Program-made: the position numbers and the translations under genes
Part shown: piece after piece, positions 13,640 to 48,530 of the stretch
How positions within the stretch are numbered: position 1 is the first letter of the stretch
Layout of the letters: each line of letters begins with the position of its first letter
Assembly (NCBI GenBank): GCA_009746045.1
Contig: RPFO01001749.1
Coordinates: 1-64,000 of the forward strand
From: Mesostigma viride
Lineage: Eukaryota > Streptophyta > Mesostigmatophyceae > Mesostigmatales > Mesostigmataceae
Length of the DNA: 64,000 nucleotides
Direction: 5' to 3'
The notes under the pieces: generated by a model
What the model was told of the DNA's origin: nothing
The model's input: the letters and a program-made list of their open reading frames with translations, nothing else
Database searches by the model: none

Positions 13640-13672
13640 TTCTTGTTTGAGCATTGGCATGCACACGCCACA

Positions 13673-14189: not shown

Positions 14190-14224
14190 AACAACATGCC
14201 GTACGCGGGGCTGGGACAATGACG

Positions 14225-21097: not shown

Positions 21098-22284
21098 ATG
21101 GAGGATGGAGCTATCAACCAACAAGCGGGCTTTATGGGCTTCGGGCGGCGCGGCGCTGGGCTGGATGGACGAGATGGACGCGATGGACGCGGTGGACGCG
21201 ATGGACGCGGGGACGGCCAGGCGCTGGGAGACCAGGCTGAGGTGCCAGATAATCAGAGCCAAGGATCGCAGGGCGGGCAGCACGCGCCAGCCGCAGATCA
21301 AGCGGCGCCTAAGCGACCAACTGTTGCTGAGGGGTACGCGGTGCTAGGCCAGTTTCAGTCCATCAAGGACAATTGGCAGCCCCGGGATGCTGAGAGGATG
21401 TTAGAGGACATGAACTTGTACACGGAGATATACAACGGTGACAAGCTTCGCATCCTGGCGTCTAGTGCCTACATACGGCAGTCGGCGAGGCGGCTGTTCA
21501 AGTTTGTTCGGGAGCGACACGCGGCGGGGGACACCTGGGCGGCGTTTATGACGCGACTCAGGGTGTTCCTGAGTGACAAGAGGACCATAGATGGGTCCCA
21601 CCTGAAGCAAGAATACCTGGACTACAAGCCCATCAAGGGGCAACTAGTGGTCCACGCCTTTGAAGACTTCGTCAAGCTGAGGGAGGACGCCATGGCCAAG
21701 GGCTTCTTCGTCGCAGATCGGATGGCCATGGGCGACTTTCTCAAGTCGCTGCAACTGGATCCGGTCACCATGGATAATGTGACCATCCACATGCGACAGG
21801 TCCATGGCTGGGCAGCCATGACGGATCAGTTGTATGAGTGTTTCAGCGGCAAGTACGTGGGGGTAAGCGCCCTCGTCAGAATGATGAGGAGGCCACTGAA
21901 CCCACGGTTAAGTCCATGAGGGGATCGGGCCACGGGGGCCCAGCGTCCTCGAGAGGGCCTGAGACCTCTTCAAGGGGTCGAGGAAGGTCCAGGAGGGGGC
22001 GTGACAGAAGGGCTGGACGGGGGACCCCGCCGAAGTCGGGACATCCACAGTCCCAGTTTGACTTCAAGAGGGTGGGTGGTCCTCCCAAGGCTGGGCCCAG
22101 CAGTGGGACCTCACGGGACATCAGTCAGGTGGAATGTTATTTCTGCCAGGGGAAGGGTCACTTCAGGAATGAGTGTCCCTCGTACCTGAGGCAGGAAGGT
22201 CAGAGCAAGCCAGCTCAGGGTGGCAGCAAGGACAAGGCTGGTCCATCCCAGGACAAGGGCAAGGGCAAGGCTGCTGATCATTGA
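21098..22284 (+). pseudogene. P1 Gag, copy I (one frameshift)
   Basis: Starts MEDGAINQQAG, with a Gly/Arg/Asp hexamer-repeat stretch near residues 25-45 and a helical Gag core. It shifts frame at a G run near 21857 (five Gs here, six in the other copies). The C-terminal part, with the CCHC knuckle (CYFCQGKGHFRNEC) and a Lys/Gly-rich tail, continues in the other frame to the TGA at 22282-22284. The intact version is at 56087-57274. Confidence 0.8.
22282..22284 (+). other. In-frame TGA between P gag and pol, copy I
   Basis: CAT-TGA-TAT. Gag and pol are in the same frame and no other stop separates them. See the findings for the possible recoding. Confidence 0.75.
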
Positions 22285-25172
22285 TATGAGCCTGCACACA
22301 TCCCTGAACCCTGGAGGGTGCCCCCAGGGGTGTGTAATGAAGCTGCTAGTGACAGCAGTGAGGGGCAGCCCCATGCTCTAGTGAAAGAGCCTATTGGACA
22401 CGATGGGGCAAGCTTGGTTACCACAGAGAGTATGCCAGCTGTAGCTGCAGTGGTTACTCGCCAACGTGCCCGCCATGGCGGTGCTGAGCCTGAGGTAGGA
22501 CCTGGTGATGTGGACCCAGGTGGATCTCAGAAGCATTCTGACCGTGCAGGACTGGCACAGGATGGTCAGGATGAGGATAGGGCTGGAGACAGTCTGACAG
22601 GCACGACCCTGGTGCCTCCTGTACATAAGGGATCTGTACATACCTTGAGTGCTAATAATGACAATAAAAGATTTTCTCTCTTGTATGACATTGCCTCAAG
22701 GTTGCATACCATGTTTGGCCATGCAGCTCAGTCTTTGCAAGTTGCTAGACGGCTGGGAGGAAGTGAGTTGTACTCCATCTGCCAACAGGTTGCTCAAGCT
22801 TGCAAGTGCAGGCTAGTTGCTAGAAAGCCCAAGCAGTCTCATGCCAGGACTCCTATTTTGCAGCCAGGCCATGTGCAGGTAGATATTCAGAGAATCAGGG
22901 GTTTGAAGCTGCTGGTGGCAGTGGACAGATATACCAAGTACAAGACCCTAGAGATCCTGCCTGACATGGAGAAGCCTACATTGATTGCTGCTCTGAAGTT
23001 GACAAGGAGCAGGTACCCTGGGTTGGAGTTGTTGCAGTGTGACATTCAGTTTGAGTGCTGTGAGAACCTGCCAGAGTTTCCAGAGTTGCTGATTACACCC
23101 AGGGAGAGCCACGGCCAGCAAGGGGTGGTGGAGAGAGCCATCCAAGAGATAAAGACTGTGCTGCTGGTGGAGAGGATTCCAAGGACGTCATCTGCCATTG
23201 TGACATCTGCATGGCTACGTTCTGTGGAGGACAGGCTGAACCTGAGGACTCCCATGTTCTTTGGTGACATTGCCATCAATCCTCTTATGCTGCATACCAG
23301 GATGCTGCCAGCTGATGCTGAGCAGGCATGGAAGGAGAAGCTAGAGGCCAAGTTCCTCAAGCTGAGGCAGAAAGACAAGGGCTGGAGTGTCCTAGAACCT
23401 AACGTTGGACAACAGGTTGTTGTGTGGAAGGAACCAAGCTTTCCAGGGAAACGTGGCAGCTGGCATGATGGGGTGGTGACCCGAGTAGAAGCCGCTGGCC
23501 ATAAGTGCTGGGTGGCCATTGATGGCTCCCAAGCAGTGCACCGTCTGTCCTGGTCAAAGATCCGTCCCCGGGGAGGTAATCAAGGAGACCTCTTCCAGGT
23601 GCCCGCTGGTGTACAAGGCGGGGGTGACGTGGAGCTTCCTGATCAGGGTGCTACAGCTGTATCGAGCCCTCAGGGTGACCCTGGCCCGGCCCCTGGGGTA
23701 CCTTCACATACGGTGGTTGGGCAAGCAGGCGGACAGGCTGCACCTCCGGAACGGCCCGACACCAGGCCTAGGGGTGTGCGTCTATCAGATATTGTACAGG
23801 CTTTGCAAAGAGCCAAGAAGGAGCCTAAGGTGTCCAAGCTTGTCCAGTTGGATGAACCTGAGGTAGCTGCCATGGAGATAGATACCAATGCGCAGGTTTC
23901 TGTCATGGGACCTCAGCATACAGGAGAACTGCTGGTCGGAGAACCAAGTTGCCCCTGGGTGTCTGATTTCAGTGGTAGGACGCATCTAAGGGTGTTGGGA
24001 GAGGTTACTGCCCCTGTCATGGGTGTGGATGTGACCTTCCTTGTCCTAGAGGACTATGATGGCCCTGTGATTTTGGGTCAGAATTTTCTGGGCAATCCTG
24101 GAATTTCTATCAGAGCTACAGCTCTGAGAAGAGATGGCTGGGGGATGATTCCCCTAGAAAATTTCAGGACAACATTTCCAGTCAGGTGCAGGGCCAAGCC
24201 GGTCAAGGGTGTAAAATGGGATGAAGGGGAGGTGCCCCCAGCGGCCAGTTTGGTTATTCCAGCTGTGTTGCACCCCAGCAGTATTGGCATAACTCACAGG
24301 AGCCTTGCTGCACACTCTCCTTTGACATATGACCAGCTGGTCCAAGAGATGAGCTCGCCTACTTTGTTTGAGGCTTGGAAGCTCGCCTTCTCCAAGGCAT
24401 TGGAGGAGTGGCTGCAGTTTGAGTGTGCTGCACCAACAGACAGACGTCCCCCAGCATCAAGGAAGCTTGCTTTGAGATTTGTGCTGAAGAGGAAGGTTGT
24501 GGATGAGGTATCAGTGCCCCATGTCAGGCCTGTCCTGAATGAGTATCACGGCACGGGGAGTCTGCCAGGAGAGGAGCTATACACGCCAGGGATGCTACAC
24601 GACACATGGAGAATTTTGCTATGTCTCTACGTGGGGTTGCTGAACAGGGGAGCAGCTATGTCATCAGTGCTGCTGGACTTCAAGAGGGCATTTTTAAAAT
24701 CTGATCCAGAAGTGGCCAGGAGGGTGTGGAAGCAGGATGAGCCTTACTGTGTTGAGGTGCCTGCCATCTGGAAGCTGGAGCTGCATCAACAATTCCTGGT
24801 TATTCTGAAGGGCCTGGAAGGACTCAGGTCGAGCCCAATCATCTGGAGGCTCACGCTGCAGGAAGCTCTGATCAGTGAGTGTGGCTTGAGAGTGTCTTCA
24901 GTTGATCCCTGTTTGCTGCTGGCCCAATGGGAGGGTCTGCCAGTGTATGCTAGTTTGCATGGAGATGATCTGCATTTGCTAGCCCCCACGACCTGGCTGA
25001 AGAAGTATATTCCTGTCATCAGTGGCAAGTTTTCACTGGGCAAGGAGCTGTGGCAGGAGCCCAACAAGCCTGTAGTGTTCTGTGGAATGCAGGCTACCCT
25101 GTTCAGGAGGGACGGGGAGTGGAGTATCAGGCTTCAGGCTGGAGGAGATTATAAACAGACCATTGTGAAGGC
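22285..25172 (+). pseudogene. P1 Pol, copy I, 5' part (interrupted by P2)
   Basis: Open from the TGA onward. Numbering from the GTG at 22318, a zinc-type HHCC region of integrase starts near residue 122 (LHTMFGH...CKC). The integrase core residues are D188 (VDIQR), D242 (CDIQF) and E272 (GVVERA). A basic SH3-like C-terminal region with HRLSWSKIRPR is near 405. A retropepsin-like domain lies at ~515-595 (EIDTNAQVSV, then ILGQNFL). RT motif A is LLDFKRAF (D787) and motif C is HGDD (883-884). At residue ~952 the frame runs into the inverted P2 LTR and ends 118 bp later, so the end of RT and the RNase H are lacking here. The remainder exists only in copy II at 59088-59795. Confidence 0.88.
25168..25172. 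repeat. Target duplication of P2, left (AAGGC), copy I
   Basis: AAGGC precedes the inverted P2 LTR. The right-hand partner survives only in copy II (59088-59092). Confidence 0.85.
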
Positions 25173-25869
25173 AGTTAAGCTTCTTCGCACACGCAATGTG
25201 AAGGATATGGTTGCAATGCAGCAATGTGTGAATATGGTTGGAAACGGAGCTTTGTTAAATCGGATAATGTTTACAGCGCTCAACACTTGAGGCTTGCACA
25301 CGAGCTTGCCAAGTCAAGGCACAACACGTGAGGCGGGCTCGCAAGAGATGCCCATTTGGCACTGGCCTATTGTTTATATACTTGTGCACTGTGCTTGCTA
25401 GTCCTGAGCAGCCTAGGAGGCCTGCTCAGTAATAACACTCCCGGTACAGTATTCACTACCTGTACAGCGCCCAGCTCCTATACAGTAGGTCTGCCATACA
25501 GGCACAGTGACCACAGAGTACAGTCACCACAGTGATTATTGCATCTGCACCTAGAAGTCCAGGACTAAGCCTGCGGTACCAACAGACCACAGGTTAAGGT
25601 TCCTATTTCCTGCGTACGACGTATTAATCCAATACCGTCGTAGGTACAGCACCTAATTCCTGTCAGCCCAGGAATTACTGTCGACCCCATATGTCGTCGG
25701 CAAATATTCACGTCCGACTTAGAAGAACAGCCGGCTCGCGCTCGCGCGCGACCGGGAAGTCGGAACGCCATAACTTTCTTGATACTCGTCGGAATGAACT
25801 CGTTCCGGTGCCGCTGGAATCGCAGAGATATGCCGAATCAGGATCACGCCAATGCGCTTGGCGTTAACT
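25173..25869 (-). repeat. P2 3' LTR, copy I (697 bp)
   Basis: On the plus strand it reads AGTTAAGCTTC...GGCGTTAACT, the reverse of a P LTR. The adjoining CCAATCCTTTCTTTTCTTG is the complement of the polypurine tract AAGAAAAGAAAGGATTGG. Confidence 0.93.
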
Positions 25870-26326: not shown

Positions 26327-29300
26327 TTAGACAGATAGACCGACTTGACAGTCAGCATTCATGAGCTTCCTCAGTACATTGTACTGGGCTGGGGCCTTGT
26401 GTGGCAGCTTTGTCAATGCATCAGCAGGGTTCTCCTCGCCAGGGATATGCTTCAAGTCAACCAAACTGGCCAACTCCTTCAGCAACAAATAATCCAGGTC
26501 CCGGCTCCTGGCCAGCTGCTTGTGAACAAACTGGACCATACCCATGCTGTCTGTTAGCAACAACGTCTCCATCTGCAAGGTCCAAGGGGTAACTGAAGCC
26601 AGCTCCAGCATTAACTCCTTTATGTACAGGCTGGACTGGATCCCCTCACATATGGCCCTGCATTCTGCCACATCTGAACTGATACAGACCCTCTTCTGCA
26701 GTCTGCTGTACCAGCTGAACAAACTTGCCCTGCTCTGATAAAAAGCAAACAGAGCAGCAGATCTCCCCCTGACCTTGGTAACCTGGCGAGCATCCATGGA
26801 ACTGTCAACAAAGATCTCCAAGGTGATAGGCTGGGCAAAGTCAATCCCAGACAAGATCAGATCAGGGGTACTCTCCACCAACCGGGCTATGACTCGAGGC
26901 TTCTCATCCTCAAGCACCTCATCAGGCATTCTGCTATGGACCATCAAAGACGGACCACAGATGCTGGCAAACCAGGCCCACATGCCTCTCAACTCAGGTC
27001 CTGCAGCCTGGGTGATCTTCTCTGGCAAGGCCTTCACAATGGTCTGTTTATAATCTCCTCCAGCCTGAAGCCTGATACTCCACTCCCCGTCCCTCCTGAA
27101 CAGGGTAGCCTGCATTCCACAGAACACTACAGGCTTGTTGGGCTCCTGCCACAGCTCCTTGCCCAGTGAAAACTTGCCACTGATGACAGGAATATACTTC
27201 TTCAGCCAGGTCGTGGGGGCTAGCAAATGCAGATCATCTCCATGCAAACTAGCATACACTGGCAGACCCTCCCATTGGGCCAGCAGCAAACAGGGATCAA
27301 CTGAAGACACTCTCAAGCCACACTCACTGATCAGAGCTTCCTGCAGCGTGAGCCTCCAGATGATTGGGCTCGACCTGAGTCCTTCCAGGCCCTTCAGAAT
27401 AACCAGGAATTGTTGATGCAGCTCCAGCTTCCAGATGGCAGGCACCTCAACACAGTAAGGCTCATCCTGCTTCCACACCCTCCTGGCCACTTCTGGATCA
27501 GATTTTAAAAATGCCCTCTTGAAGTCCAGCAGCACTGATGACATAGCTGCTCCCCTGTTCAGCAACCCCACGTAGAGACATAGCAAAATTCTCCATGTGT
27601 CGTGTAGCATCCCTGGCGTGTATAGCTCCTCTCCTGGCAGACTCCCCGTGCCGTGATACTCATTCAGGACAGGCCTGACATGGGGCACTGATACCTCATC
27701 CACAACCTTCCTCTTCAGCACAAATCTCAAAGCAAGCTTCCTTGATGCTGGGGGACGTCTGTCTGTTGGTGCAGCACACTCAAACTGCAGCCACTCCTCC
27801 AATGCCTTGGAGAAGGCGAGCTTCCAAGCCTCAAACAAAGTAGGCGAGCTCATCTCTTGGACCAGCTGGTCATATGTCAAAGGAGAGTGTGCAGCAAGGC
27901 TCCTGTGAGTTATGCCAATACTGCTGGGGTGCAACACAGCTGGAATAACCAAACTGGCCGCTGGGGGCACCTCCCCTTCATCCCATTTTACACCCTTGAC
28001 CGGCTTGGCCCTGCACCTGACTGGAAATGTTGTCCTGAAATTTTCTAGGGGAATCATCCCCCAGCCATCTCTTCTCAGAGCTGTAGCTCTGATAGAAATT
28101 CCAGGATTGCCCAGAAAATTCTGACCCAAAATCACAGGGCCATCATAGTCCTCTAGGACAAGGAAGGTCACATCCACACCCATGACAGGGGCATTAACCT
28201 CTCCCAACACCCTTAGATGCGTCCTACCACTGAAATCAGACACCCAGGGGCAACTTGGTTCTCCGACCAGCAGTTCTCCTGTATGCTGAGGTCCCATGAC
28301 AGAAACCTGCGCATTGGTATCTATCTCCATGGCAGCTACCTCAGGTTCATCCAACTGGACAAGCTTGGACACCTTAGGCTCCTTCTTGGCTCTTTGCAAA
28401 GCCTGTACAATATCTGATAGACGCACACCCCTAGGCCTGGTGTCGGGCCGTTCCGGAGGTGCAGCCTGTCCGCCTGCTTGCCCAATCACCGTATGTGAAG
28501 GTACCCCAGGGGCCGGGCCAGGGTCACCCTGAGGGCTCGATACAGCTGTAGCACCCTGATCAGGAAGCTCCACGTCACCCCCGCCTTGTACACCAGCGGG
28601 CACCTGGAAGAGGTCTCCTTGATTACCTCCCCGGGGACGGATCTTTGACCAGGACAGACGGTGCACTGCTTGGGAGCCATCAATGGCCACCCAGCACTTA
28701 TGGCCAGCGGCTTCTACTCGGGTCACCACCCCATCATGCCAGCTGCCACGTTTCCCTGGAAAGCTTGGTTCCTTCCACACAACAACCTGTTGTCCAACGT
28801 TAGGTTCTAGGACACTCCAGCCCTTGTCTTTCTGCCTCAGCTTGAGGAACTTGGCCTCTAGCTTCTCCTTCCATGCCTGCTCAGCATCAGCTGGCAGCAT
28901 CCTGGTATGCAGCATAAGAGGATTGATGGCAATGTCACCAAAGAACATGGGAGTCCTCAGGTTCAGCCTGTCCTCCACAGAACGTAGCCATGCAGATGTC
29001 ACAATGGCAGATGACGTCCTTGGAATCCTCTCCACCAGCAGCACAGTCTTTATCTCTTGGATGGCTCTCTCCACCACCCCTTGCTGGCCGTGGCTCTCCC
29101 TGGGTGTAATCAGCAACTCTGGAAACTCTGGTAGGTTCTCACAGCACTCAAACTGAATGTCACACTGCAACAACTCCAACCCAGGGTACCTGCTCCTTGT
29201 CAACTTCAGAGCAGCAATCAATGTAGGCTTCTCCATGTCAGGCAGGATCTCTAGGGTCTTGTACTTGGTATATCTGTCCACTGCCACCAGCAGCTTCAAA

Positions 29301-29550
29301 CCCCTGATTCTCTGAATATCTACCTGCACATGGCCTGGCTGCAAAATAGGAGTCCTGGCATGAGACTGCTTGGGCTTTCTAGCAACTAGCCTGCACTTGC
29401 AAGCTTGAGCAACCTGTTGGCAGATGGAGTACAACTCACTTCCTCCCAGCCGTCTAGCAACTTGCAAAGACTGAGCTGCATGGCCAAACATGGTATGCAA
29501 CCTTGAGGCAATGTCATACAAGAGAGAAAATCTTTTATTGTCATTATTAG
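26327..29550 (-). pseudogene. P2 Pol, copy I, from integrase to RNase H
   Basis: An unbroken 1,064-residue frame from MYDIASRLHTMFGH to the TAA, plus the few codons up to the Q insertion at 29551. It has integrase, the SH3-like tail, the retropepsin-like DTN domain, RT with HGDD, and the complete RNase H. RNase H carries IFVDSSMD near 905, AECRAICEG near 951 and LTDSMG near 993, and the C-terminus is ADALTKLP, as in copia elements. It equals the copy II frame 44666-47860. It lacks its N-terminal ~120 residues and Gag because Q separates them. Confidence 0.88.
29546..29550. repeat. Target duplication of Q, left (ATTAG), copy I
   Basis: ATTAG precedes the Q LTR. The right-hand partner is lost here but present in copy II (55715-55719). 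Confidence 0.85.
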
Positions 29551-30167
29551 AGTTAACGTAAAGGATTTACGTTAGATGGATAGAGATTGTTACGCTCTTT
29601 CCAACGGCACCTTGAACGCCTCATTTGGTTAAGGAACGTAAAAGTTATGACGTTTCCTAGGCTGTGCCGACAGTACCCGGCGCGCCACTGTGGGCGCGTA
29701 CGGACACAGGATGTACAAGTGTCACTTTGATAGTCCGCAGGACGTTGACAGGACTTGTACAGGACTTGATGGTCAATTGATAGGTAGGCGCACTGTAGCG
29801 CGCCAGGACCTATGAGACAATTGATGCTGACTAGTGTACGGATAGGTCCACAGGACTAGCCGTATGGACAATTGATAGATCTGCGCGCCAAAGGCGTGCC
29901 AGAGTCTGTGTAATCAATTGATTGACAGTTCAGCTGTGACAGTGCAGCTGAATACTTGGACGCGTCCCTAGTAAGCTATATGAGTGACTTGGTCACACCG
30001 GGACGCTAGTTCTTGCGTGCACGTTCTCTTGGCACTGCGACCCTGTCGTCTGTGCTGCGTGCAGTCTTGGAAGTGACGTGACTTACGTCTGTGTTTCCTG
30101 ATTGTTAATAAAGGCAACTTCCTGCAAGAACCATGGCGGAATTCGTGGCATTCTTACCCTCACAACT
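29551..30167 (+). repeat. Q 5' LTR, copy I (617 bp)
   Basis: Begins AGTTAACGTAAAGG and ends CCCTCACAACT. The AGTT...AACT tips match the P family although the bodies do not. The first 25 bp form a hairpin (AACGTAAA...TTTACGTT). There is an AATAAA at 30107-30112 and a weak CTATATGA box at ~29975. Confidence 0.92.
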
Positions 30168-30191: not shown

Positions 30192-30902
30192 ATGCCAAAT
30201 TCGGAAGAATTTCGGATTCCGGACGATGAGGAAATAGCCGCTCCGCCGGCTGGTTCTTCGTCAAGACCAACTGTGCCGTCGTGGCAACAATTGCTCGACG
30301 AAGTTACAGTTTCGCTCGACGAGCTTCATCGTCAGCAGCGTGCAGCTCACGCATTGCTCGGGGATAACCCCGAGGACCCCGATTTGCCAGCACTGGTGCC
30401 GGCAATCCGCAACCTGTTGGACCAAATCCGCAACATTTTATCGACATTTACGGTCCAGGTGCGGGGAGGTTTGCGGTCGGTGACCGAAGTCACGACTGCC
30501 ATTGAGGAGTTGGACAACGTCCTCTCTTCACTCACCGGTTACCAGAGAAACCTGCAAAACTGGGCATCGCTTCGCACGGGGGGCGCGCCGGCGGTGTCAA
30601 CAAATTTGTTTCAGGATCTCGCGCTGTTATCGCTGCTCACTCGCGGCGTACGCAGTCGCGAGCGCCAGGTTTTAATTAACCTGGTGGCATTTCTCGCCTC
30701 TGTGCGAGAGTGGATTCCCGCGGGGTGGGAATTATTGACGATCTTTACACATCCTCTGCGCCTCGTCGCGCGTCGGCGCGTCGCAACTTACGCGGCGGGG
30801 AGCACGCCGGTTTTAATTCATACCGGTGCAGGTCCGGAGCTGGATATGGAGGATCCTGAGTTCGTATACACGTACTGCGACTTCAGGGGCCTTGACTACT
30901 AG
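30192..30902 (+). CDS. Q ORF A, unknown protein upstream of gag, copy I (intact)
   Basis: About 236 residues from the ATG at 30192 (MPNSEEFRIPDDEEI) to TAG. The frame is also open upstream into the LTR, but this is the first ATG in it. I do not recognise a family. It is acidic at the start. A long predicted-helical part (residues ~30-120) is rich in Leu, Gln and Asn, with LLDEVTVSLDELHRQQRAAH, so a coiled coil is likely. The end is EDPEFVYTYCDFRGLDY. It sits where family P has its own ORF A. Retained in two diverged families, it is probably a real element protein such as a Gag-like accessory, but that is inference. The copy at 48531 is broken. Confidence 0.6.
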   Translation: MPNSEEFRIPDDEEIAAPPAGSSSRPTVPSWQQLLDEVTVSLDELHRQQRAAHALLGDNPEDPDLPALVPAIRNLLDQIRNILSTFTVQVRGGLRSVTEVTTAIEELDNVLSSLTGYQRNLQNWASLRTGGAPAVSTNLFQDLALLSLLTRGVRSRERQVLINLVAFLASVREWIPAGWELLTIFTHPLRLVARRRVATYAAGSTPVLIHTGAGPELDMEDPEFVYTYCDFRGLDY

Positions 30903-31070: not shown

Positions 31071-32186
31071 ATGGCTGAGGGACGCCGTAGCAAGGGTCCA
31101 GCCAGTGGGAATAATAATGGGGGTGCTGGTAGTGGAACCGCTCACGTAGATGACGTGGGGCTTACCGGAGAGATTACCAACCTTCCTCACAATAATAATA
31201 ATGCACAAGCTATTCATGGCTTTGATCTTACCACACAGGGTCTTTTAATTGTCAATCAGTTGCAGCCTGTAACCTCAGACTCCAAGCCTAAGCAGGCTGA
31301 AGAGTTTGTGGAGGGATTGGAAGGGTTCCCTAGCTTGTACGGTGGTACAAATTACTATCAAATCTGGATAGGCAGTAGCACTTTTGGCAAGTGTACTGAC
31401 CAGATTAAGGACCTAACCAGGGAGTGCAAAAAGGCCAATAAGGCCTGGGCACTGTACGTGGCTGAGCTGAAGGAGCTGCTGGAGGATCAGAGGAAGAAAG
31501 TGGGGATCCATTGGCAGGACAAGTACCAAGGGTGGGAGGTCAAGGGGGACCTGATCCAGAACTTTCTCAACTATTGTAAGATGGTTGAGGAGGGCAGGGC
31601 TCACGGCTTTAATGTCGCTGATAACATAGCCCTAACCAACTGGCTCAAGGTTTCTGGGCTGGACAAGGCTACACGTGGCTCTTTAAAGGTCATGTGTGCC
31701 CCACACTCAACCCTCAAGGCCTACAAGGTCATAATCAAACAAGCACTCGAGGCAGAGGAGCTGTTTGAGGGTGGAGTGCCAGCAGTGAAGGCTACCCAGG
31801 CAGGCGGGCGTACCCAGGGTGGCTCCAAGACGTCTGAGGCTGACCGAAGCCAAGGAGGGCGTAGGGGCAACCATCACAAGCGCAAGGGAGATCATTCACC
31901 TGATTCTGACAGGAGGTCACACTCCAAGTCGGTGTTCAGGCGGGTGGGTGGTCAGCCCAAGCAGGGCAACGCGTCTGACAATGGGGGCAGTGGCCAGGGC
32001 AAGTCCAAGATACAATGCTACCTGTGCAAGGGGTGGGGGCACATCAAGAAGGAGTGTCCCAGCTTCAAGAAGTCCCAGGGCCAGGGCAGCAACAAGAATA
32101 ACAACAACAACAAGAAGAACAACAACAAGTCCCAGGCAGGCCAGCCTTCAAAGGGCAGTCAGCAAGAAGACAACAAGGAGCAGTGA
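31071..32186 (+). CDS. Q Gag, copy I (intact)
   Basis: 371 residues from MAEGRRSKGPASGN to TGA. Residues 1-45 are polar and Asn/Gly-rich. Residues ~60-230 are a helical Gag core; NVADNIALTNWLKVSGLD aligns with FVADRMAMGDFLKSLQLD of the P Gag. Basic Ser/Arg-rich sequence follows. A CCHC knuckle (CYLCKGWGHIKKEC) lies near 318-331, and the tail is Asn/Lys/Gln-rich. By family analogy it forms the virus-like particle and binds the element RNA. The frame continues past the TGA directly into pol. Confidence 0.88.
   Translation: MAEGRRSKGPASGNNNGGAGSGTAHVDDVGLTGEITNLPHNNNNAQAIHGFDLTTQGLLIVNQLQPVTSDSKPKQAEEFVEGLEGFPSLYGGTNYYQIWIGSSTFGKCTDQIKDLTRECKKANKAWALYVAELKELLEDQRKKVGIHWQDKYQGWEVKGDLIQNFLNYCKMVEEGRAHGFNVADNIALTNWLKVSGLDKATRGSLKVMCAPHSTLKAYKVIIKQALEAEELFEGGVPAVKATQAGGRTQGGSKTSEADRSQGGRRGNHHKRKGDHSPDSDRRSHSKSVFRRVGGQPKQGNASDNGGSGQGKSKIQCYLCKGWGHIKKECPSFKKSQGQGSNKNNNNNKKNNNKSQAGQPSKGSQQEDNKEQ
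32184..32186 (+). other. In-frame TGA between Q gag and pol, copy I
   Basis: CAG-TGA-CTG. Gag and pol share one frame, with no other stop between them. TGA followed by C is a leaky context in several known readthrough signals. Confidence 0.75.
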
Positions 32187-35100
32187 CTGTCTGAGGCAAC
32201 CCCTACACACCTTAATTCACCCAAGGGGGAGGCCAGGTGCTCCAATGCAGATTTTATATCTGGGCAACAAGAGGGTGATCTCCAGGTTCAGTGTGGCCCC
32301 AGGTCACCTGGAGAGGTACAGGTTCCTATGAAGACGTCCTTGACAGCTGATGCAGCTGTAAGTATGTCTGACCCTATGCATCCTCGTGCTGGGCACGAGG
32401 GTGGACCTCTCATTTTGAGAGAAACCAATGTACAACCACAGAGGGGTGTGAAGGCCTCTGGTGGTATGCATGTGGTCCCTGCTGGCGGTCCAGGTGTTGG
32501 GCATGAGCAGGGTGACTCAGGCTCTGAGTCAGAACAGGATGGAAGTCAGCATGGTGATGCTGGACAACCTGACAGCACAGTCCTGACTGTGCCAGGGACT
32601 GCTTCCTCTGTGTACCAGGAGTTGGGTGCCCGAATCCACAACATGTTTGGGCATGCCACTTCTCTGTCAAACAACTTTGCCTTCCGTATGGGCAGGGCAC
32701 CCCTTCTTAAGGCGTGTCAGCAAGCTGCCTCACGGTGTAAGTGCCAGTTGTCCTCCAACAAGCCCAGGAAATCACATGCCAAAGCTCTACCTCAGAGCAT
32801 TGGTGATCTGCAGTGTGATATCCAACACATCAGGGGCATGCAACTGTTGGTGTGCGTGGACAGGTACACGAAATACAAGGTGCTGGAGCATTTACCTTCT
32901 ATGAAGAACAGGTACTTGCTGGCTGCCCTGCAGAATGTAAGAGCCAAGTTTCCTACCACAAGGATCCAGGTGGACATGCAGTTTCAGCATCTCAAGGGTG
33001 ATCCTACCCTTCCTGAGTTGCTGGTTACACCTAGGGAGGCTCATGGGCAGCAGGGTGCTATCGAGAGGGCAATCCAGGAGGTCAAGAAATTGATCATCTC
33101 TGAAGACTGGGTACCCTTGTCTGCACCTGCACTTGTCAGGAGTGCATGGCTGAGGAACGTGGAGCAGCAGCTGAACAGCAGGGTTAACTTCTACTATGAT
33201 GGAGTTGCTGTCAGCCCAATGGGTCTATATCATGGCCTGTGCCCACCACATGTGCTGGAGGGCTGGAAACATGCTGCACATGTCACCTTTGCCAAGCTGA
33301 GGGAGAAGGACCGGGGTTGGAAGATGCTGGAGCCACAAGTGGGTCAGAAGGTCCTAGCTTGGAAGGAACCTAGCCTTTATGGCAAACGTGGTAGCTGGAG
33401 TCCTGGGGTGGTTACCCAGGTTGATGAAGCTAGCCACGCATGCTTGGTCAGCATGGAGGACGAACCAAAGCATGTACACCGGCTGAGTTGGTCATATGTC
33501 AAGCCTAACCTGATGAATGAGGGCAGTCAGGCACAAGGCTCACAGGATCTGCAGGATTTTCAGGTCCCAGGTGACATCACTGACGCAACGACCACATCTG
33601 TTGCAGGGGAATCTGTCAGCCCTGGCCAGGTTGCAGAGGTACTTGTTGAACAGGCTGCAAGGTCAACAGCTGGGGAGTCAACTGTCAAGCCCAAGGCACT
33701 AACCAAGCCCAGGGGGACAAGTTTGGCTGGATTGATTGGGGCTCTACAAAGGGCCAAGAAGCAGCCCAAGGTAGCCAAGCTCAGGTGGCATGGCAATCTG
33801 GGGCTGGACACTGCCTTAGAGGTAGACACTAATTCTCAGGTCTCCATTATTGGGACCAGGGCTGCAGCAGGGTACAGCATGTCTGAACCCAGCTATCAGT
33901 TTGTGTCTGACTTCAGTGGCGGGGTACACGTGAAGGTACTGGGTGAGGTATTCATTCCTATCCTTGGACAGGACACTGCTTTTTGTGTCTTGGAGGGCTA
34001 TCAAGGACCTGCTCTTCTGGGGCAGAATTTCCTATGCCAGGATGGGGTAGTGATCACGTCCTCTCTCCTGACTAAGGAAGGGGCTGGTCAGGTCCCACTG
34101 ATTAATTTCAGGACCACTCACCTATCACGTGCAGTAACCAGGACGGTTAAGCGTGTGCAAGTGTGCCAGGGGCAGGAGCCCTTGGTTGATGACCTCATAC
34201 TGCCAGCTGCTAGTCATCCAAGCAGTTTGGGCATTGGTCCTCACTCACTTGCTGGACACAGCCCTATCAACTACCAAGGCCTGGTGAAGCTCATGTCCTC
34301 TCCCATTATGTGTCCCCAGGTCACACTGGGTCTCATTAAATCTGGGGAGGACTGGATCTCCAAGAAATGCGTGGAACCTGTCAATGACCTGCCTCCTGCA
34401 CGACGTCTACTCAAGCTCAAGTTTGTCATCAAGATGAAGGAGGTGGACGGGGTCAAGGTACCACATGTCAGGCCAGTGCTGAATGAGTTCAAGGGTACTG
34501 GTGAGTGCACTGCTGAGGAGTTGTATACCCCTGGCATGCTGCATGATACTTGGAGGCTGCTGCTGTGTGTCTTTCTAGGCCTTCTCAACAAGGGCTTGGA
34601 CTATGGCTCAGTGGTGATAGACTTCAAGAGGGCATTTCTGGAGGGTGATGCAGATGTGGCACAGGAAAAGTGGGAGGGCAAGACGCCTTTCTATGTTAGG
34701 GTGCCTGCTGTATGGAAAAGGGACATCCACACGGAGTTCCTTAAAATCCTCAAGGGCCTGGAGGGCCTGAGGTCAAGTCCAATAATCTGGAGGGAGACTC
34801 TCAACCGTTTCCTGAAGGAGCATTGCAACTTGAAGGTCTCTCCTGTAGACCCCTGTCTGTTTCTGGGGCAATGGGAAGGCCTGCCAGTGTATGCTTCGCT
34901 GCACGGGGATGACCTACATCTGATAGCTCCCACGTCGTGGCTTAAGGAGCTGATCTCCATCATTAAGTCCAAGTTTCCTCTGGGTAGGGAGCAATGGCAG
35001 GTGGAGAATGAGCCTCTGCTGTTTGTGGGCATGGAGGCCACACTGGTGAAGAAGGGAGGGGAGTGGCGTATGCTGCTGGTGGGGGGCAATGACTATCAAG

Positions 35101-35813
35101 AGACCCTCATTAGCAAGCTTCCTCCAACCATCACACAGGCACTGTGTCCCATGGTGAGGGGCATGGTTGCTTGGGTGGCAGGCATTTCCAGGCCAGACCT
35201 TATGGTCATAGCCAGGTTGCCTGATGACATGCTGGTGGAGCTAGGGTCTGCCAAGGTGGCTGATCAGGTCAGGGCTTCATCTGGCATTCTGTTGTCTGCA
35301 GTGGATTTATCACAACCCATTTGCATGGAGCTGTATGTGGATAGCTCAATGGACAGCAGGCAGGTCTCCAAGGTCAGGGGCAGGGCTGCAGGGCTCTTTG
35401 TGCTCAGACAGGAAGGCCTGGGGAGTTTGGTGAGCTGGTTTAGTCGCCTGCACAAACGGGTGGCTGTCAGCAGTGATGTGGCAGAATGCAGGGCTATTTG
35501 TGAAGGCATTCACACAAGCCTTTATCTGAAGGAGTTGCTTCATCAGATGACTTCTAACACTCCTTGGCCACTTCAGGTTACCACTCTTCTAAAAACAGAC
35601 TCCATGGGGATGGTGCAGTTTGTGCACAGGCAGATGGCCAGAAGTAGGGACTTGGATTATCTCCTTCTTAAGGAGTTGTCCTCCTTGGCCAATATTGAGC
35701 ATATCCCTGGGGTTGACAATCCTGCTGATGCTTTGACCAAGCTAGTGCAGAAGGCAGCAGTGCAATACAAGGTTCTTCAGTCTCTGATGGACCCATCTCA
35801 GCAAGCTGTCTAA
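32187..35813 (+). CDS. Q Pol, copy I (intact: integrase, protease-like, RT, RNase H)
   Basis: Open from the TGA. The first ATG is at 32328 (MKTSLTADAAVSMSD), giving 1,161 residues. Numbered from that ATG: the integrase zinc region is near 100 (ARIHNMFGH...CKCQ). The core has D164 (QCDIQ), D216 (VDMQF) and E246 (GAIERA), with 29 residues between the last two. A SH3-like tail with HRLSWSYVKP follows near 385. The retropepsin-like domain has DTNSQVSI near 500 and LLGQNFL near 563. RT motif A is VIDFKRAF (D765) and motif C is HGDD (~861). RNase H has YVDSSMD near 1005, then AECRAICEG, KTDSMG and DALTKL. It ends in TAA. No protease motif lies before the integrase. This is the most complete copy of the family in the window. 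Confidence 0.9.
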   Translation: MSEATPTHLNSPKGEARCSNADFISGQQEGDLQVQCGPRSPGEVQVPMKTSLTADAAVSMSDPMHPRAGHEGGPLILRETNVQPQRGVKASGGMHVVPAGGPGVGHEQGDSGSESEQDGSQHGDAGQPDSTVLTVPGTASSVYQELGARIHNMFGHATSLSNNFAFRMGRAPLLKACQQAASRCKCQLSSNKPRKSHAKALPQSIGDLQCDIQHIRGMQLLVCVDRYTKYKVLEHLPSMKNRYLLAALQNVRAKFPTTRIQVDMQFQHLKGDPTLPELLVTPREAHGQQGAIERAIQEVKKLIISEDWVPLSAPALVRSAWLRNVEQQLNSRVNFYYDGVAVSPMGLYHGLCPPHVLEGWKHAAHVTFAKLREKDRGWKMLEPQVGQKVLAWKEPSLYGKRGSWSPGVVTQVDEASHACLVSMEDEPKHVHRLSWSYVKPNLMNEGSQAQGSQDLQDFQVPGDITDATTTSVAGESVSPGQVAEVLVEQAARSTAGESTVKPKALTKPRGTSLAGLIGALQRAKKQPKVAKLRWHGNLGLDTALEVDTNSQVSIIGTRAAAGYSMSEPSYQFVSDFSGGVHVKVLGEVFIPILGQDTAFCVLEGYQGPALLGQNFLCQDGVVITSSLLTKEGAGQVPLINFRTTHLSRAVTRTVKRVQVCQGQEPLVDDLILPAASHPSSLGIGPHSLAGHSPINYQGLVKLMSSPIMCPQVTLGLIKSGEDWISKKCVEPVNDLPPARRLLKLKFVIKMKEVDGVKVPHVRPVLNEFKGTGECTAEELYTPGMLHDTWRLLLCVFLGLLNKGLDYGSVVIDFKRAFLEGDADVAQEKWEGKTPFYVRVPAVWKRDIHTEFLKILKGLEGLRSSPIIWRETLNRFLKEHCNLKVSPVDPCLFLGQWEGLPVYASLHGDDLHLIAPTSWLKELISIIKSKFPLGREQWQVENEPLLFVGMEATLVKKGGEWRMLLVGGNDYQETLISKLPPTITQALCPMVRGMVAWVAGISRPDLMVIARLPDDMLVELGSAKVADQVRASSGILLSAVDLSQPICMELYVDSSMDSRQVSKVRGRAAGLFVLRQEGLGSLVSWFSRLHKRVAVSSDVAECRAICEGIHTSLYLKELLHQMTSNTPWPLQVTTLLKTDSMGMVQFVHRQMARSRDLDYLLLKELSSLANIEHIPGVDNPADALTKLVQKAAVQYKVLQSLMDPSQQAV

Positions 35814-36684: not shown

Positions 36685-37176
36685 CATTCATTCATTCATT
36701 CATTCATTCATTCATTCATTCATTCATTCATTCATTCATTCATTCATTCATTCATTCATTCATTCATTCATTTCATTCATTCATTCATTCATTCATTCAT
36801 TCATTCATTCATTCATTCATTCATTCATTCATTCATTCATTCATTCATTCATTCATTCATTCATTCATTCATTCATTCATTCATTCATTCATTCATTCAT
36901 TCATTCATTCATTCATTCATTCATTCATTCATTCATTCATTCATTCATTCATTCATTTCAATTCATTCATTCATTCATTCATTCATTCATTCATTCATTC
37001 ATTCACTTTCATTCATTCATTCATTCATTCATTCATTCATTCATTCATTCATTCATTCATTCATTCATTCATTCATTCATTCATTCATTCATTCATTCAT
37101 TCATTCATTCATTCATTCATTCATTCATTCATTCATTCATTCATTCATTCATTCATTCATTCATTCATTCATTCAT
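36685..37176. repeat. (ATTC)n microsatellite, array 2, interrupted
   Basis: About 120 units with three breaks (an extra T near 36772, CATTTCAATTC near 36957, CACTTTC near 37006). The frames coding IHSF repeats are artefacts. Confidence 0.98.
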
Positions 37177-40623: not shown

Positions 40624-43511
40624 TATGAGCCTGCACACATCCCTGAACCCTGGAGGGTGCCCCCAGGGGTGTGTAATGAAGCTGCTAGTGACAGCAGTGA
40701 GGGGCAGCCCCATGCTCTAGTGAAAGAGCCTATTGGACACGATGGGGCAAGCTTGGTTACCACAGAGAGTATGCCAGCTGTAGCTGCAGTGGTTACTCGC
40801 CAACGTGCCCGCCATGGCGGTGCTGAGCCTGAGGTAGGACCTGGTGATGTGGACCCAGGTGGATCTCAGAAGCATTCTGACCGTGCAGGACTGGCACAGG
40901 ATGGTCAGGATGAGGATAGGGCTGGAGACAGTCTGACAGGCACGACCCTGGTGCCTCCTGTACATAAGGGATCTGTACATACCTTGAGTGCTAATAATGA
41001 CAATAAAAGATTTTCTCTCTTGTATGACATTGCCTCAAGGTTGCATACCATGTTTGGCCATGCAGCTCAGTCTTTGCAAGTTGCTAGACGGCTGGGAGGA
41101 AGTGAGTTGTACTCCATCTGCCAACAGGTTGCTCAAGCTTGCAAGTGCAGGCTAGTTGCTAGAAAGCCCAAGCAGTCTCATGCCAGGACTCCTATTTTGC
41201 AGCCAGGCCATGTGCAGGTAGATATTCAGAGAATCAGGGGTTTGAAGCTGCTGGTGGCAGTGGACAGATATACCAAGTACAAGACCCTAGAGATCCTGCC
41301 TGACATGGAGAAGCCTACATTGATTGCTGCTCTGAAGTTGACAAGGAGCAGGTACCCTGGGTTGGAGTTGTTGCAGTGTGACATTCAGTTTGAGTGCTGT
41401 GAGAACCTACCAGAGTTTCCAGAGTTGCTGATTACACCCAGGGAGAGCCACGGCCAGCAAGGGGTGGTGGAGAGAGCCATCCAAGAGATAAAGACTGTGC
41501 TGCTGGTGGAGAGGATTCCAAGGACGTCATCTGCCATTGTGACATCTGCATGGCTACGTTCTGTGGAGGACAGGCTGAACCTGAGGACTCCCATGTTCTT
41601 TGGTGACATTGCCATCAATCCTCTTATGCTGCATACCAGGATGCTGCCAGCTGATGCTGAGCAGGCATGGAAGGAGAAGCTAGAGGCCAAGTTCCTCAAG
41701 CTGAGGCAGAAAGACAAGGGCTGGAGTGTCCTAGAACCTAACGTTGGACAACAGGTTGTTGTGTGGAAGGAACCAAGCTTTCCAGGGAAACGTGGCAGCT
41801 GGCATGATGGGGTGGTGACCCGAGTAGAAGCCGCTGGCCATAAGTGCTGGGTGGCCATTGATGGCTCCCAAGCAGTGCACCGTCTGTCCTGGTCAAAGAT
41901 CCGTCCCCGGGGAGGTAATCAAGGAGACCTCTTCCAGGTGCCCGCTGGTGTACAAGGCGGGGGTGACGTGGAGCTTCCTGATCAGGGTGCTACAGCTGTA
42001 TCGAGCCCTCAGGGTGACCCTGGCCCGGCCCCTGGGGTACCTTCACATACGGTGGTTGGGCAAGCAGGCGGACAGGCTGCACCTCCGGAACGGCCCGACA
42101 CCAGGCCTAGGGGTGTGCGTCTATCAGATATTGTACAGGCTTTGCAAAGAGCCAAGAAGGAGCCTAAGGTGTCCAAGCTTGTCCAGTTGGATGAACCTGA
42201 GGTAGCTGCCATGGAGATAGATACCAATGCGCAGGTTTCTGTCATGGGACCTCAGCATACAGGAGAACTGCTGGTCGGAGAACCAAGTTGCCCCTGGGTG
42301 TCTGATTTCAGTGGTAGGACGCATCTAAGGGTGTTGGGAGAGGTTACTGCCCCTGTCATGGGTGTGGATGTGACCTTCCTTGTCCTAGAGGACTATGATG
42401 GCCCTGTGATTTTGGGTCAGAATTTTCTGGGCAATCCTGGAATTTCTATCAGAGCTACAGCTCTGAGAAGAGATGGCTGGGGGATGATTCCCCTAGAAAA
42501 TTTCAGGACAACATTTCCAGTCAGGTGCAGGGCCAAGCCGGTCAAGGGTGTAAAATGGGATGAAGGGGAGGTGCCCCCAGCGGCCAGTTTGGTTATTCCA
42601 GCTGTGTTGCACCCCAGCAGTATTGGCATAACTCACAGGAGCCTTGCTGCACACTCTCCTTTGACATATGACCAGCTGGTCCAAGAGATGAGCTCGCCTA
42701 CTTTGTTTGAGGCTTGGAAGCTCGCCTTCTCCAAGGCATTGGAGGAGTGGCTGCAGTTTGAGTGTGCTGCACCAACAGACAGACGTCCCCCAGCATCAAG
42801 GAAGCTTGCTTTGAGATTTGTGCTGAAGAGGAAGGTTGTGGATGAGGTATCAGTGCCCCATGTCAGGCCTGTCCTGAATGAGTATCACGGCACGGGGAGT
42901 CTGCCAGGAGAGGAGCTATACACGCCAGGGATGCTACACGACACATGGAGAATTTTGCTATGTCTCTACGTGGGGTTGCTGAACAGGGGAGCAGCTATGT
43001 CATCAGTGCTGCTGGACTTCAAGAGGGCATTTTTAAAATCTGATCCAGAAGTGGCCAGGAGGGTGTGGAAGCAGGATGAGCCTTACTGTGTTGAGGTGCC
43101 TGCCATCTGGAAGCTGGAGCTGCATCAACAATTCCTGGTTATTCTGAAGGGCCTGGAAGGACTCAGGTCGAGCCCAATCATCTGGAGGCTCACGCTGCAG
43201 GAAGCTCTGATCAGTGAGTGTGGCTTGAGAGTGTCTTCAGTTGATCCCTGTTTGCTGCTGGCCCAATGGGAGGGTCTGCCAGTGTATGCTAGTTTGCATG
43301 GAGATGATCTGCATTTGCTAGCCCCCACGACCTGGCTGAAGAAGTATATTCCTGTCATCAGTGGCAAGTTTTCACTGGGCAAGGAGCTGTGGCAGGAGCC
43401 CAACAAGCCTGTAGTGTTCTGTGGAATGCAGGCTACCCTGTTCAGGAGGGACGGGGAGTGGAGTATCAGGCTTCAGGCTGGAGGAGATTATAAACAGACC
43501 ATTGTGAAGGC
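40624..43511 (+). pseudogene. P1 Pol, copy II, 5' part (interrupted by P2)
   Basis: Same content as 22285-25172: integrase, SH3-like tail, retropepsin-like domain and RT through HGDD. It is open from the TGA and breaks where the inverted P2 LTR starts at 43512. Differences from copy I are very few (for example CCTACC for CCTGCC at ~41408). The rest of this gene is at 59088-59795. Confidence 0.88.
43507..43511. repeat. Target duplication of P2, left (AAGGC), copy II
   Basis: Partner of 59088-59092. The pair brackets P2 exactly. Confidence 0.92.
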
Positions 43512-44208
43512 AGTTAAGCTTCTTCGCACACGCAATGTGAAGGATATGGTTGCAATGCAGCAATGTGTGAATATGGTTGGAAACGGAGCTTTGTTAAATC
43601 GGATAATGTTTACAGCGCTCAACACTTGAGGCTTGCACACGAGCTTGCCAAGTCAAGGCACAACACGTGAGGCGGGCTCGCAAGAGATGCCCATTTGGCA
43701 CTGGCCTATTGTTTATATACTTGTGCACTGTGCTTGCTAGTCCTGAGCAGCCTAGGAGGCCTGCTCAGTAATAACACTCCCGGTACAGTATTCACTACCT
43801 GTACAGCGCCCAGCTCCTATACAGTAGGTCTGCCATACAGGCACAGTGACCACAGAGTACAGTCACCACAGTGATTATTGCATCTGCACCTAGAAGTCCA
43901 GGACTAAGCCTGCGGTACCAACAGACCACAGGTTAAGGTTCCTATTTCCTGCGTACGACGTATTAATCCAATACCGTCGTAGGTACAGCACCTAATTCCT
44001 GTCAGCCCAGGAATTACTGTCGACCCCATATGTCGTCGGCAAATATTCACGTCCGACTTAGAAGAACAGCCGGCTCGCGCTCGCGCGCGACCGGGAAGTC
44101 GGAACGCCATAACTTTCTTGATACTCGTCGGAATGAACTCGTTCCGGTGCCGCTGGAATCGCAGAGATATGCCGAATCAGGATCACGCCAATGCGCTTGG
44201 CGTTAACT
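43512..44208 (-). repeat. P2 3' LTR, copy II
   Basis: 697 bp, reversed P LTR. It appears identical to 58391-59087 and 25173-25869. Confidence 0.93.
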
Positions 44209-44665: not shown

Positions 44666-47600
44666 TTAGACAGATAGACCGACTTGACAGTCAGCATTCA
44701 TGAGCTTCCTCAGTACATTGTACTGGGCTGGGGCCTTGTGTGGCAGCTTTGTCAATGCATCAGCAGGGTTCTCCTCGCCAGGGATATGCTTCAAGTCAAC
44801 CAAACTGGCCAACTCCTTCAGCAACAAATAATCCAGGTCCCGGCTCCTGGCCAGCTGCTTGTGAACAAACTGGACCATACCCATGCTGTCTGTTAGCAAC
44901 AACGTCTCCATCTGCAAGGTCCAAGGGGTAACTGAAGCCAGCTCCAGCATTAACTCCTTTATGTACAGGCTGGACTGGATCCCCTCACATATGGCCCTGC
45001 ATTCTGCCACATCTGAACTGATACAGACCCTCTTCTGCAGTCTGCTGTACCAGCTGAACAAACTTGCCCTGCTCTGATAAAAAGCAAACAGAGCAGCAGA
45101 TCTCCCCCTGACCTTGGTAACCTGGCGAGCATCCATGGAACTGTCAACAAAGATCTCCAAGGTGATAGGCTGGGCAAAGTCAATCCCAGACAAGATCAGA
45201 TCAGGGGTACTCTCCACCAACCGGGCTATGACTCGAGGCTTCTCATCCTCAAGCACCTCATCAGGCATTCTGCTATGGACCATCAAAGACGGACCACAGA
45301 TGCTGGCAAACCAGGCCCACATGCCTCTCAACTCAGGTCCTGCAGCCTGGGTGATCTTCTCTGGCAAGGCCTTCACAATGGTCTGTTTATAATCTCCTCC
45401 AGCCTGAAGCCTGATACTCCACTCCCCGTCCCTCCTGAACAGGGTAGCCTGCATTCCACAGAACACTACAGGCTTGTTGGGCTCCTGCCACAGCTCCTTG
45501 CCCAGTGAAAACTTGCCACTGATGACAGGAATATACTTCTTCAGCCAGGTCGTGGGGGCTAGCAAATGCAGATCATCTCCATGCAAACTAGCATACACTG
45601 GCAGACCCTCCCATTGGGCCAGCAGCAAACAGGGATCAACTGAAGACACTCTCAAGCCACACTCACTGATCAGAGCTTCCTGCAGCGTGAGCCTCCAGAT
45701 GATTGGGCTCGACCTGAGTCCTTCCAGGCCCTTCAGAATAACCAGGAATTGTTGATGCAGCTCCAGCTTCCAGATGGCAGGCACCTCAACACAGTAAGGC
45801 TCATCCTGCTTCCACACCCTCCTGGCCACTTCTGGATCAGATTTTAAAAATGCCCTCTTGAAGTCCAGCAGCACTGATGACATAGCTGCTCCCCTGTTCA
45901 GCAACCCCACGTAGAGACATAGCAAAATTCTCCATGTGTCGTGTAGCATCCCTGGCGTGTATAGCTCCTCTCCTGGCAGACTCCCCGTGCCGTGATACTC
46001 ATTCAGGACAGGCCTGACATGGGGCACTGATACCTCATCCACAACCTTCCTCTTCAGCACAAATCTCAAAGCAAGCTTCCTTGATGCTGGGGGACGTCTG
46101 TCTGTTGGTGCAGCACACTCAAACTGCAGCCACTCCTCCAATGCCTTGGAGAAGGCGAGCTTCCAAGCCTCAAACAAAGTAGGCGAGCTCATCTCTTGGA
46201 CCAGCTGGTCATATGTCAAAGGAGAGTGTGCAGCAAGGCTCCTGTGAGTTATGCCAATACTGCTGGGGTGCAACACAGCTGGAATAACCAAACTGGCCGC
46301 TGGGGGCACCTCCCCTTCATCCCATTTTACACCCTTGACCGGCTTGGCCCTGCACCTGACTGGAAATGTTGTCCTGAAATTTTCTAGGGGAATCATCCCC
46401 CAGCCATCTCTTCTCAGAGCTGTAGCTCTGATAGAAATTCCAGGATTGCCCAGAAAATTCTGACCCAAAATCACAGGGCCATCATAGTCCTCTAGGACAA
46501 GGAAGGTCACATCCACACCCATGACAGGGGCATTAACCTCTCCCAACACCCTTAGATGCGTCCTACCACTGAAATCAGACACCCAGGGGCAACTTGGTTC
46601 TCCGACCAGCAGTTCTCCTGTATGCTGAGGTCCCATGACAGAAACCTGCGCATTGGTATCTATCTCCATGGCAGCTACCTCAGGTTCATCCAACTGGACA
46701 AGCTTGGACACCTTAGGCTCCTTCTTGGCTCTTTGCAAAGCCTGTACAATATCTGATAGACGCACACCCCTAGGCCTGGTGTCGGGCCGTTCCGGAGGTG
46801 CAGCCTGTCCGCCTGCTTGCCCAATCACCGTATGTGAAGGTACCCCAGGGGCCGGGCCAGGGTCACCCTGAGGGCTCGATACAGCTGTAGCACCCTGATC
46901 AGGAAGCTCCACGTCACCCCCGCCTTGTACACCAGCGGGCACCTGGAAGAGGTCTCCTTGATTACCTCCCCGGGGACGGATCTTTGACCAGGACAGACGG
47001 TGCACTGCTTGGGAGCCATCAATGGCCACCCAGCACTTATGGCCAGCGGCTTCTACTCGGGTCACCACCCCATCATGCCAGCTGCCACGTTTCCCTGGAA
47101 AGCTTGGTTCCTTCCACACAACAACCTGTTGTCCAACGTTAGGTTCTAGGACACTCCAGCCCTTGTCTTTCTGCCTCAGCTTGAGGAACTTGGCCTCTAG
47201 CTTCTCCTTCCATGCCTGCTCAGCATCAGCTGGCAGCATCCTGGTATGCAGCATAAGAGGATTGATGGCAATGTCACCAAAGAACATGGGAGTCCTCAGG
47301 TTCAGCCTGTCCTCCACAGAACGTAGCCATGCAGATGTCACAATGGCAGATGACGTCCTTGGAATCCTCTCCACCAGCAGCACAGTCTTTATCTCTTGGA
47401 TGGCTCTCTCCACCACCCCTTGCTGGCCGTGGCTCTCCCTGGGTGTAATCAGCAACTCTGGAAACTCTGGTAGGTTCTCACAGCACTCAAACTGAATGTC
47501 ACACTGCAACAACTCCAACCCAGGGTACCTGCTCCTTGTCAACTTCAGAGCAGCAATCAATGTAGGCTTCTCCATGTCAGGCAGGATCTCTAGGGTCTTG

Positions 47601-48506: not shown

Positions 48507-48530
48507 CGTATTACACGCTCTGTCAAAAAG

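Follow-up and report, generated by a model that had tools for sequence, protein, structure and literature searches.

Where in Pol can a long terminal repeat (LTR) retrotransposon carry its protease? The question is raised by a stretch of 64,000 nucleotides (the window) from the 440-Mb genome of Mesostigma viride, which holds two element families, named Q and P. The order of domains in Pol serves to separate the superfamilies of LTR elements. We confirm that in Q and P the integrase comes first, followed by a domain with a DTN motif, the reverse transcriptase (RT) and the ribonuclease H (RNase H). The initial annotation had described this order, and the frames that encode it lie where it placed them. 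It had also read the DTN segment as retropepsin-like. We think it reasonably likely that Q and P represent a lineage in which the RT and RNase H are of Copia type and Pol runs integrase, aspartic protease, RT and RNase H, the protease being of retropepsin type, in the ILG form, with a D-T-N site.

Both families are LTR retrotransposons, having near-identical LTRs, a short target-site duplication, a CCHC Gag, integrase, RT and RNase H. In the window they form a nest, in which a minus-strand P copy (P2) lies inside a plus-strand one (P1) and Q lies inside P2; 5-bp target-site duplications, ATTAG and AAGGC, flank the insertions. In a self-alignment, 17.15 kb recur about 18.34 kb further on and are 99.6% identical, which marks a tandem duplication of the three-element nest (19287-54762). 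The LTR pairs are identical in Q (617/617 columns) and P2 (697/697), and P1 has 691 of 698 columns identical. The Q Pol is a single open frame of 1208 residues (32187-35813, plus strand), and the P Pol is open at 26327-29566 and 44666-47905 on the minus strand and at 22285-25290 and 40624-43629 on the plus strand. The two P2 Pols run from integrase to RNase H (26327-29550 and 44666-47889, minus strand), with the protease-like part at 28040-28384 in the first and at 46379-46723 in the second, where DTN is at 46652-46660. On the plus strand, the P protease-like domain is found at 42157-42501 (DTN at residue 533 of P0007) and, placed from that copy through the 18339-base spacing, at 23818-24162. 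These plus-strand Pols had been counted as support for the order. They are present, but they belong to the duplicated unit and cease to be P at 25172 and 43511, where the LTR of the inserted P2 starts. Due to the nesting and the duplication, the Q and P copies of the window are not independent of each other, and independent support for the domain order comes from copies elsewhere in the genome.

Such copies are abundant and, together with the LTR pairs and the target-site duplications, they speak for a recent spread of both families. All 38 scored genome matches of the Q Pol were 100% identical over 1208 residues and without a stop, and all 43 of the P Pol, two of which are the window's own, were 99-100% identical and open; these matches are the top-scored among roughly 10,000 loose candidates from a first look with each Pol and are uninformative on decayed copies. 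For further families, we searched the genome for HGDDLH with a codon pattern whose wobble positions rule out P and Q, and obtained 697 sites against 3 for the reversed control. The 30 loci that we fetched all matched the P and Q Pol by tblastn. They group as R, S and T (T1 and T2), with RT-RNase H 57-68% identical to that of P and Q; in this region, R and S are 87% alike, and T1 and T2 are nearly identical. P and Q Pol share 51% identity over 1074 columns. Judged from one locus each, a single frame in T1 and T2 runs from the integrase through DTN, LGQNF and HGDD to the end of the RNase H, and S and R have the identical domain order in frame-broken copies. The layout is shared by at least five families, then, in one frame in P, Q and T and in frame-broken copies in R and S. 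The window's nested insertions and its tandem duplication at about 18.34 kb would suit a rearranged or mis-assembled single locus. We reject that explanation, which is refuted by Pol copies at dozens of other sites and by five families in the same order; the earlier argument that no chance rearrangement of one copy is involved stands. Searching the viral and genome contig collections with the whole Pol and with the RT-RNase H, we found no relative.

In the Q Pol, the integrase (32607-33506, plus strand) comprises a zinc-binding HHCC part, the D211-D263-E293 core and an SH3/Agenet-like C-terminal part. A variable linker separates it from the DTN domain, after which come the RT, which is of Copia type and carries HGDD, and the RNase H. 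H151, H156, C184, C186, D211, D263 and E293 align across Q, P and T2; T1, with its later frame start, has the last five of them. Pfam rve gave an expectation value (E) of 0.039 with the whole Q Pol and 0.0052 with the trimmed part, neither of which reaches the Pfam cut-off; the integrase profile gave no match to the window's ordinary Copia element. The triad of Q Pol at 211, 263 and 293 is spaced D-x29-E, and the usual integrase spacing, D-x35-E, is longer. The C-terminal part (33315-33506, with counterparts in P and T) resembles Agenet/Tudor domains (Agenet E 0.0089 in T1, 0.01 in T2 and 0.015 in one of P and Q), and it matched the Tudor region of PHF1 in PDB at E 1.3. By this resemblance, the integrase end could possibly be a chromatin reader.

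The RT is of Copia type (34377-35111, plus strand; RVT_2 E 4.2e-6, 27 bits against a cut-off of 31.6). RVT_2 was also found in R (E 8.6e-5), S (0.0012), T1 (0.045) and T2 (0.06) and gave no match in P, and all of these scores miss the Pfam cut-off. The profile of RT-RNase H aligned with the window's ordinary Copia element at E 1.6e-7 in hhalign. The RNase H, also of Copia type, follows at 35112-35786 (plus strand), and its D1052, E1100 and D1138 are invariant in six sequences. There was no RVT_1 among the Pfam matches of these Pols, and the integrase does not come after the RNase H, so they do not qualify as Ty3/Gypsy.

Does the DTN domain look like a protease? The segment of about 115 residues between integrase and RT reads E[V/I]DTN[S/A]QVS and then [I/L]LGQNFL in Q and P. 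In Q, it covers Pol residues 526-640 (33762-34106, plus strand), with DTN, the proposed catalytic motif, at residues 547-549 (33825-33833, plus strand) and LLGQNF, the proposed second motif of the ILG type, at residues 610-615 (34014-34031, plus strand). The glycine of LLGQNF/ILGQNF stands 65 residues past the Asp of DTN in both P and Q. The two hydrophobic residues plus glycine that mark the second motif of a retropepsin are found at the right distance as [I/L]LGQNF, and the place of D-[ST]-G is taken by DTN in all six sequences. DTN was present in all 23 R, S and T loci whose motif context could be read with its three middle residues unspecified, 7 of the 30 loci being without that context, and an ILG-type motif was present in 25 of the 30, each time as ILGQNF. 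The paired motif arose in 1 of 20000 shuffles of Q and 2 of 20000 of P, figures that serve as an illustration only, the motif having been built post hoc.

The domain is also under constraint. Across the six sequences, D is encoded by GAC or GAT, T by ACT or ACC (Q has the odd codon both times) and N by AAT or AAC; such synonymous changes indicate that selection holds the amino acids rather than the DNA. Between R and S copies that are frame-broken elsewhere, the proportions of nonsynonymous and synonymous differences (pN/pS) were 0.10/0.44 in the protease-like domain, 0.11/0.59 in RT, 0.05/0.41 in RNase H and 0.25/0.33 in the preceding linker. The segment is constrained like the RT and unlike the linker. 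Q and P are identical here at 55 of 110 residues, against 14 of 61 in the linker. Residues 1-140 of Q Pol are likewise poorly conserved (28 of 103 aligned residues agree with P and 30 of 123 with S). Looking for a protease upstream of the integrase in Q, P, S, R and T2, we found only such poorly conserved sequence and a stray DSG in Q and in S. The former statement that no DTG or DSG lies between the CCHC knuckle and the integrase is literally wrong, as the DSG of Q, in low-complexity sequence, is at Pol residue 110.

Profile comparisons point to retropepsins. They lead two of three PDB profile searches: with the trimmed P/Q profile, 9 of 10 matches at E <= 10 were retroviral proteases (best E 0.068), and with a longer P/Q segment both matches were (E 1.5 and 1.6). 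In two of six families, Pfam gag-asp_proteas matched over nearly its full length, covering 14-91 of its 92 positions in P (E 0.13) and 11-90 in R (E 0.041). Assuming no gap near the start, the Asp of P and R falls on the column taken by the DTG Asp of L051. This L051 (G000 contig C2011, a 214-residue frame) is the genome's best retropepsin-family match (PF13975, E 4.2e-17), and is by its look perhaps a single-gene bacterial-type protease from a companion bacterium. In a 75-column hhalign alignment with four DTG retropepsins found in this genome (single-pair P 0.035), DTN fell on DTG and ILG on IIG, and the four-retropepsin profile found its best place in the whole Q Pol at 539-591 (P 0.091). 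With the A10 hidden Markov model (HMM), five retropepsins scored above 999, 997, 958, 953 and 736 of 1000 of their own shuffles; the first two are near-identical, and a single aligned residue underlies the result of 958. No retropepsin was drawn by control segments from either side of the domain.

Several results weigh against this assignment, and they suit a domain that is unrelated to retropepsins, with the motifs arising by coincidence in some other beta domain. The profile searches that the initial annotation had called for bring up retropepsins among the leads, with no match significant, whether in Pfam (the best being the R match) or in PDB (the best being that of the trimmed profile). 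One control segment matched unrelated designed TIM barrels at E 0.0073, and E-values of this size, reached by chance, mean little alone. The probabilities given by hhalign itself were just 1.5% for the DTG retropepsins and 0.6% for the whole Q Pol. The whole Q Pol against PDB gave 10 matches and no retropepsin; neither of the two sequences of a 214-residue P/Q segment had a Pfam family; Pfam on shorter Q segments and NCBIfam on P and Q gave nothing. The six-family profile ranked a citrate lyase (E 0.33) over retropepsins (E 1.0 and 1.6). DUF6898 gave a local match of 19-25 residues to the DTN stretch in three of the six families, and its E was better (0.0019 in T1). The in-genome retropepsin HMM was unspecific on full Pols, since decoys equalled or exceeded the real score in 90 (Q), 19 (R) and 102 (S) of 500 cases; it placed no domain in P, T1 or T2, and its match in S was elsewhere in Pol. 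AlphaFold models of the segment from two-row alignments reached a predicted local distance difference test score (pLDDT) of 32.5 and 41.3, and both were unusable as folds. Foldseek found nothing below E 0.001 with either of them. The second of the two Foldseek lists, with retroviral proteases in 17 of 50 rows (all at E >= 2.6 and prob <= 0.05), was given no weight. To our knowledge, DTN occurs at the site of no aspartic protease.

Even so, we judge an unrelated domain to be improbable. Two libraries point to retropepsins in register, and the 65-residue spacing from Asp to the ILG glycine is the same in P and Q. Weak scores are also to be expected for this lineage, because the profile of the undoubted RT from the same Pol found no RT in PDB at E 10. 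A retropepsin is at present the best reading of the DTN domain, given the motif architecture, the Pfam and PDB leads in register and the constraint at D, T, N and ILG. The earlier reading of the segment fares accordingly: its motifs, its profile leads and its constraint are in favour, and against it stand searches that all fell short of significance and two unusable AlphaFold models. We are rather confident that the domain has a retropepsin fold.

The fold may be kept without the activity. An enzyme-dead retropepsin could serve in Gag-Pol dimerisation or assembly, with cleavage left to a host protease or unneeded, and the Asn that replaces the third residue of the DTG or DSG of known retropepsins in 23 of 23 readable loci would fit such a loss. 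A dead site, on the other hand, would not require an invariant D and T and an ILG loop that is kept in six sequences despite synonymous changes, although the codon changes at D and T come from Q alone. Asn is moreover more tolerant of glycine-like backbone angles than any other residue. We regard the enzyme-dead alternative as a minor one, and consider that the DTN domain is probably an active enzyme.

If so, where did the protease come from? In the excerpted text of a survey of LTR elements, Copia proteases, with very few exceptions, carry LLS and most other LTR-element proteases ILG (PMC2774666). The window's ordinary Copia element conforms, having a DTG and LLS protease ahead of its integrase; in P, Q, R, S and T, the motif is ILG or LLG. 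An ILG form together with Copia-type RT and RNase H suggests that the protease was taken from another element and placed behind the integrase, and the old one lost. The same layout would result if the element's own Copia protease had moved behind the integrase; a single move suffices for this, and the RT-RNase H is of Copia type. This origin does not explain an ILG motif in place of LLS, and hhalign found no similarity to the window's Copia protease, which is a weak test. We hold a move of the own protease to be unlikely, and capture from another element the likelier of the two.

The T family suggests that the domain can still be exchanged. T1 and T2 (L049 and L050) are 92-100% identical in ungapped 60-base windows of the shared Pol, and only 57-82% across T2 residues 401-520, which span DTN (413) and LGQNF (477). 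The difference within the DTN domain is mostly synonymous (pN 0.17, pS 0.57), which speaks for the exchange of two functional versions and not for the decay of one. T1 and T2 seem to differ by a domain-sized exchange, as if the domain had been swapped as a cassette, and this suggests that the protease is a part that these elements can lose, replace and swap. The initial annotation had remarked on neither this exchange nor the ILG form, which is foreign to nearly all Copia proteases. We lean slightly toward the full history, in which a lineage of Copia descent gave up its own protease and gained a foreign ILG-type D-T-N aspartic protease between integrase and RT, still exchangeable as a cassette in T1 and T2.

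The Q Gag (31071-32186, plus strand) has one CCHC knuckle and ends in TGA, with Pol next in frame. The P2 Gag (56087-57286, minus strand) is open, has CCHC and likewise ends in TGA with Pol next in frame. Among 16 fetched loci, the TGA junction was found in all 11 that contain the start of Pol, including 8 of 8 Q loci (L001-L008), which are near-identical copies. We propose that, the usual Copia protease before the integrase having been lost and an ILG-form retropepsin-type domain standing between integrase and RT, Gag alone would be made from the TGA-stopped frame and occasional ribosomal readthrough of the TGA would yield Gag-Pol. In the particle, two Gag-Pol chains would pair and their DTN loops would together make up a single aspartic-protease site, which would cut out Gag, the integrase and the RT-RNase H. 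Placed in the middle of Pol, the protease must act while fused to integrase and RT, or free itself first. The length of Gag sits less well with this scheme. Upstream of Pol, the frame stays open for 367-373 codons (373, 373 and 367) in only 3 of 8 Q loci and for 165-239 in the other five, and for 148 codons in all three P loci. A shared one-base length difference breaks the Gag frame in three of four P copies compared (window P1 at 21086-22281, L013 and L016), which may be decay, an assembly error or a real frame change.

Upstream of gag, both families have an extra open reading frame (ORF) after the 5' LTR. This ORF1 is an open frame in Q (30192-30902, plus strand); in P2 it lies at 57377-58297 (minus strand), and its counterpart in P1 is at 20076-20915 (plus strand); a Pfam scan of the Q and P2 frames gave no credible family match. 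The 5' LTR of Q (29551-30167, plus strand, 617 bp) has the ends AGTT...AACT and is identical at 617/617 positions to the 3' LTR at 55098-55714. The ends AGTT and AACT, not TG...CA, are also seen at 19287-19981 and in the matching 3' LTRs. In both P and Q, ATTGG lies between the purine tract and the 3' LTR, and no TGG directly follows the 5' LTR. The second Q copy of the duplicated unit (47890-55714, plus strand) has both LTRs and a frame-broken gag and pol. The left part of P1 (19287-25172, plus strand) holds the 5' LTR, ORF1, the frame-broken Gag and Pol as far as the P2 insertion. The ordinary Copia element, our internal control, spans 1-6253 with identical LTRs of 316 bp; its Pol (457-5328, minus strand) has the DTG...LLS protease, then the integrase, then the RT. 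Tandem arrays with 10-bp and 8-bp periods occupy 11616-14600, 36685-37176 and 61354-61860, and contain long repeat ORFs in several frames.

How does this layout compare with known elements? Like Ty1/Copia, P and Q have the integrase before the RT, Copia-type RT and RNase H, a CCHC Gag and a 5-bp target duplication, the length usual in Copia. Unlike Ty1/Copia, their protease-like domain comes after the integrase, with none found before it, and has ILG instead of LLS and DTN instead of DTG; the RT-RNase H of the lineage is only 24-26% identical to that of the window's ordinary Copia element. As far as the excerpted survey goes, the integrase of LTR elements occurs in five states: it lies downstream of the protease or of the RNase H, it precedes gag (in petunia vein clearing virus), it is truncated and reversed (in REM1), or it has been lost; the order gag, integrase, protease, RT is absent from these five (PMC2774666). 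The same excerpts offer partial parallels (PMC2774666). The Gmr1 clade of Ty3/Gypsy also departs from the usual order of its superfamily, but the integrase of Gmr1 is downstream of the protease, and that of P and Q is upstream and joined to a Copia-type RT. Petunia vein clearing virus, with an integrase upstream of the rest of Pol, is the nearest published precedent; its integrase is upstream of gag, whereas in P and Q gag is first and the protease-like domain directly follows the integrase. REM1 is another exception in integrase position, but its integrase is truncated and in reverse frame. Compared with the DTG/ILG template of clan AA, as given in the consulted part of its description (PMC2642776), P and Q have the Asp-Thr and ILG motifs in the right order and spacing, and differ in the Asn at the third catalytic position and in scores below significance. 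A full-text search of open-licence PMC papers found no description of this order, which is no proof that none exists, and relatives may stand unremarked in existing repeat libraries.

If our reading is true, a conserved and recently spread lineage of this layout would show that particles can mature without a protease at the front of Pol, and an aspartic protease with a natural DTN site would probe the extent to which chemistry dictates the DTG rule.

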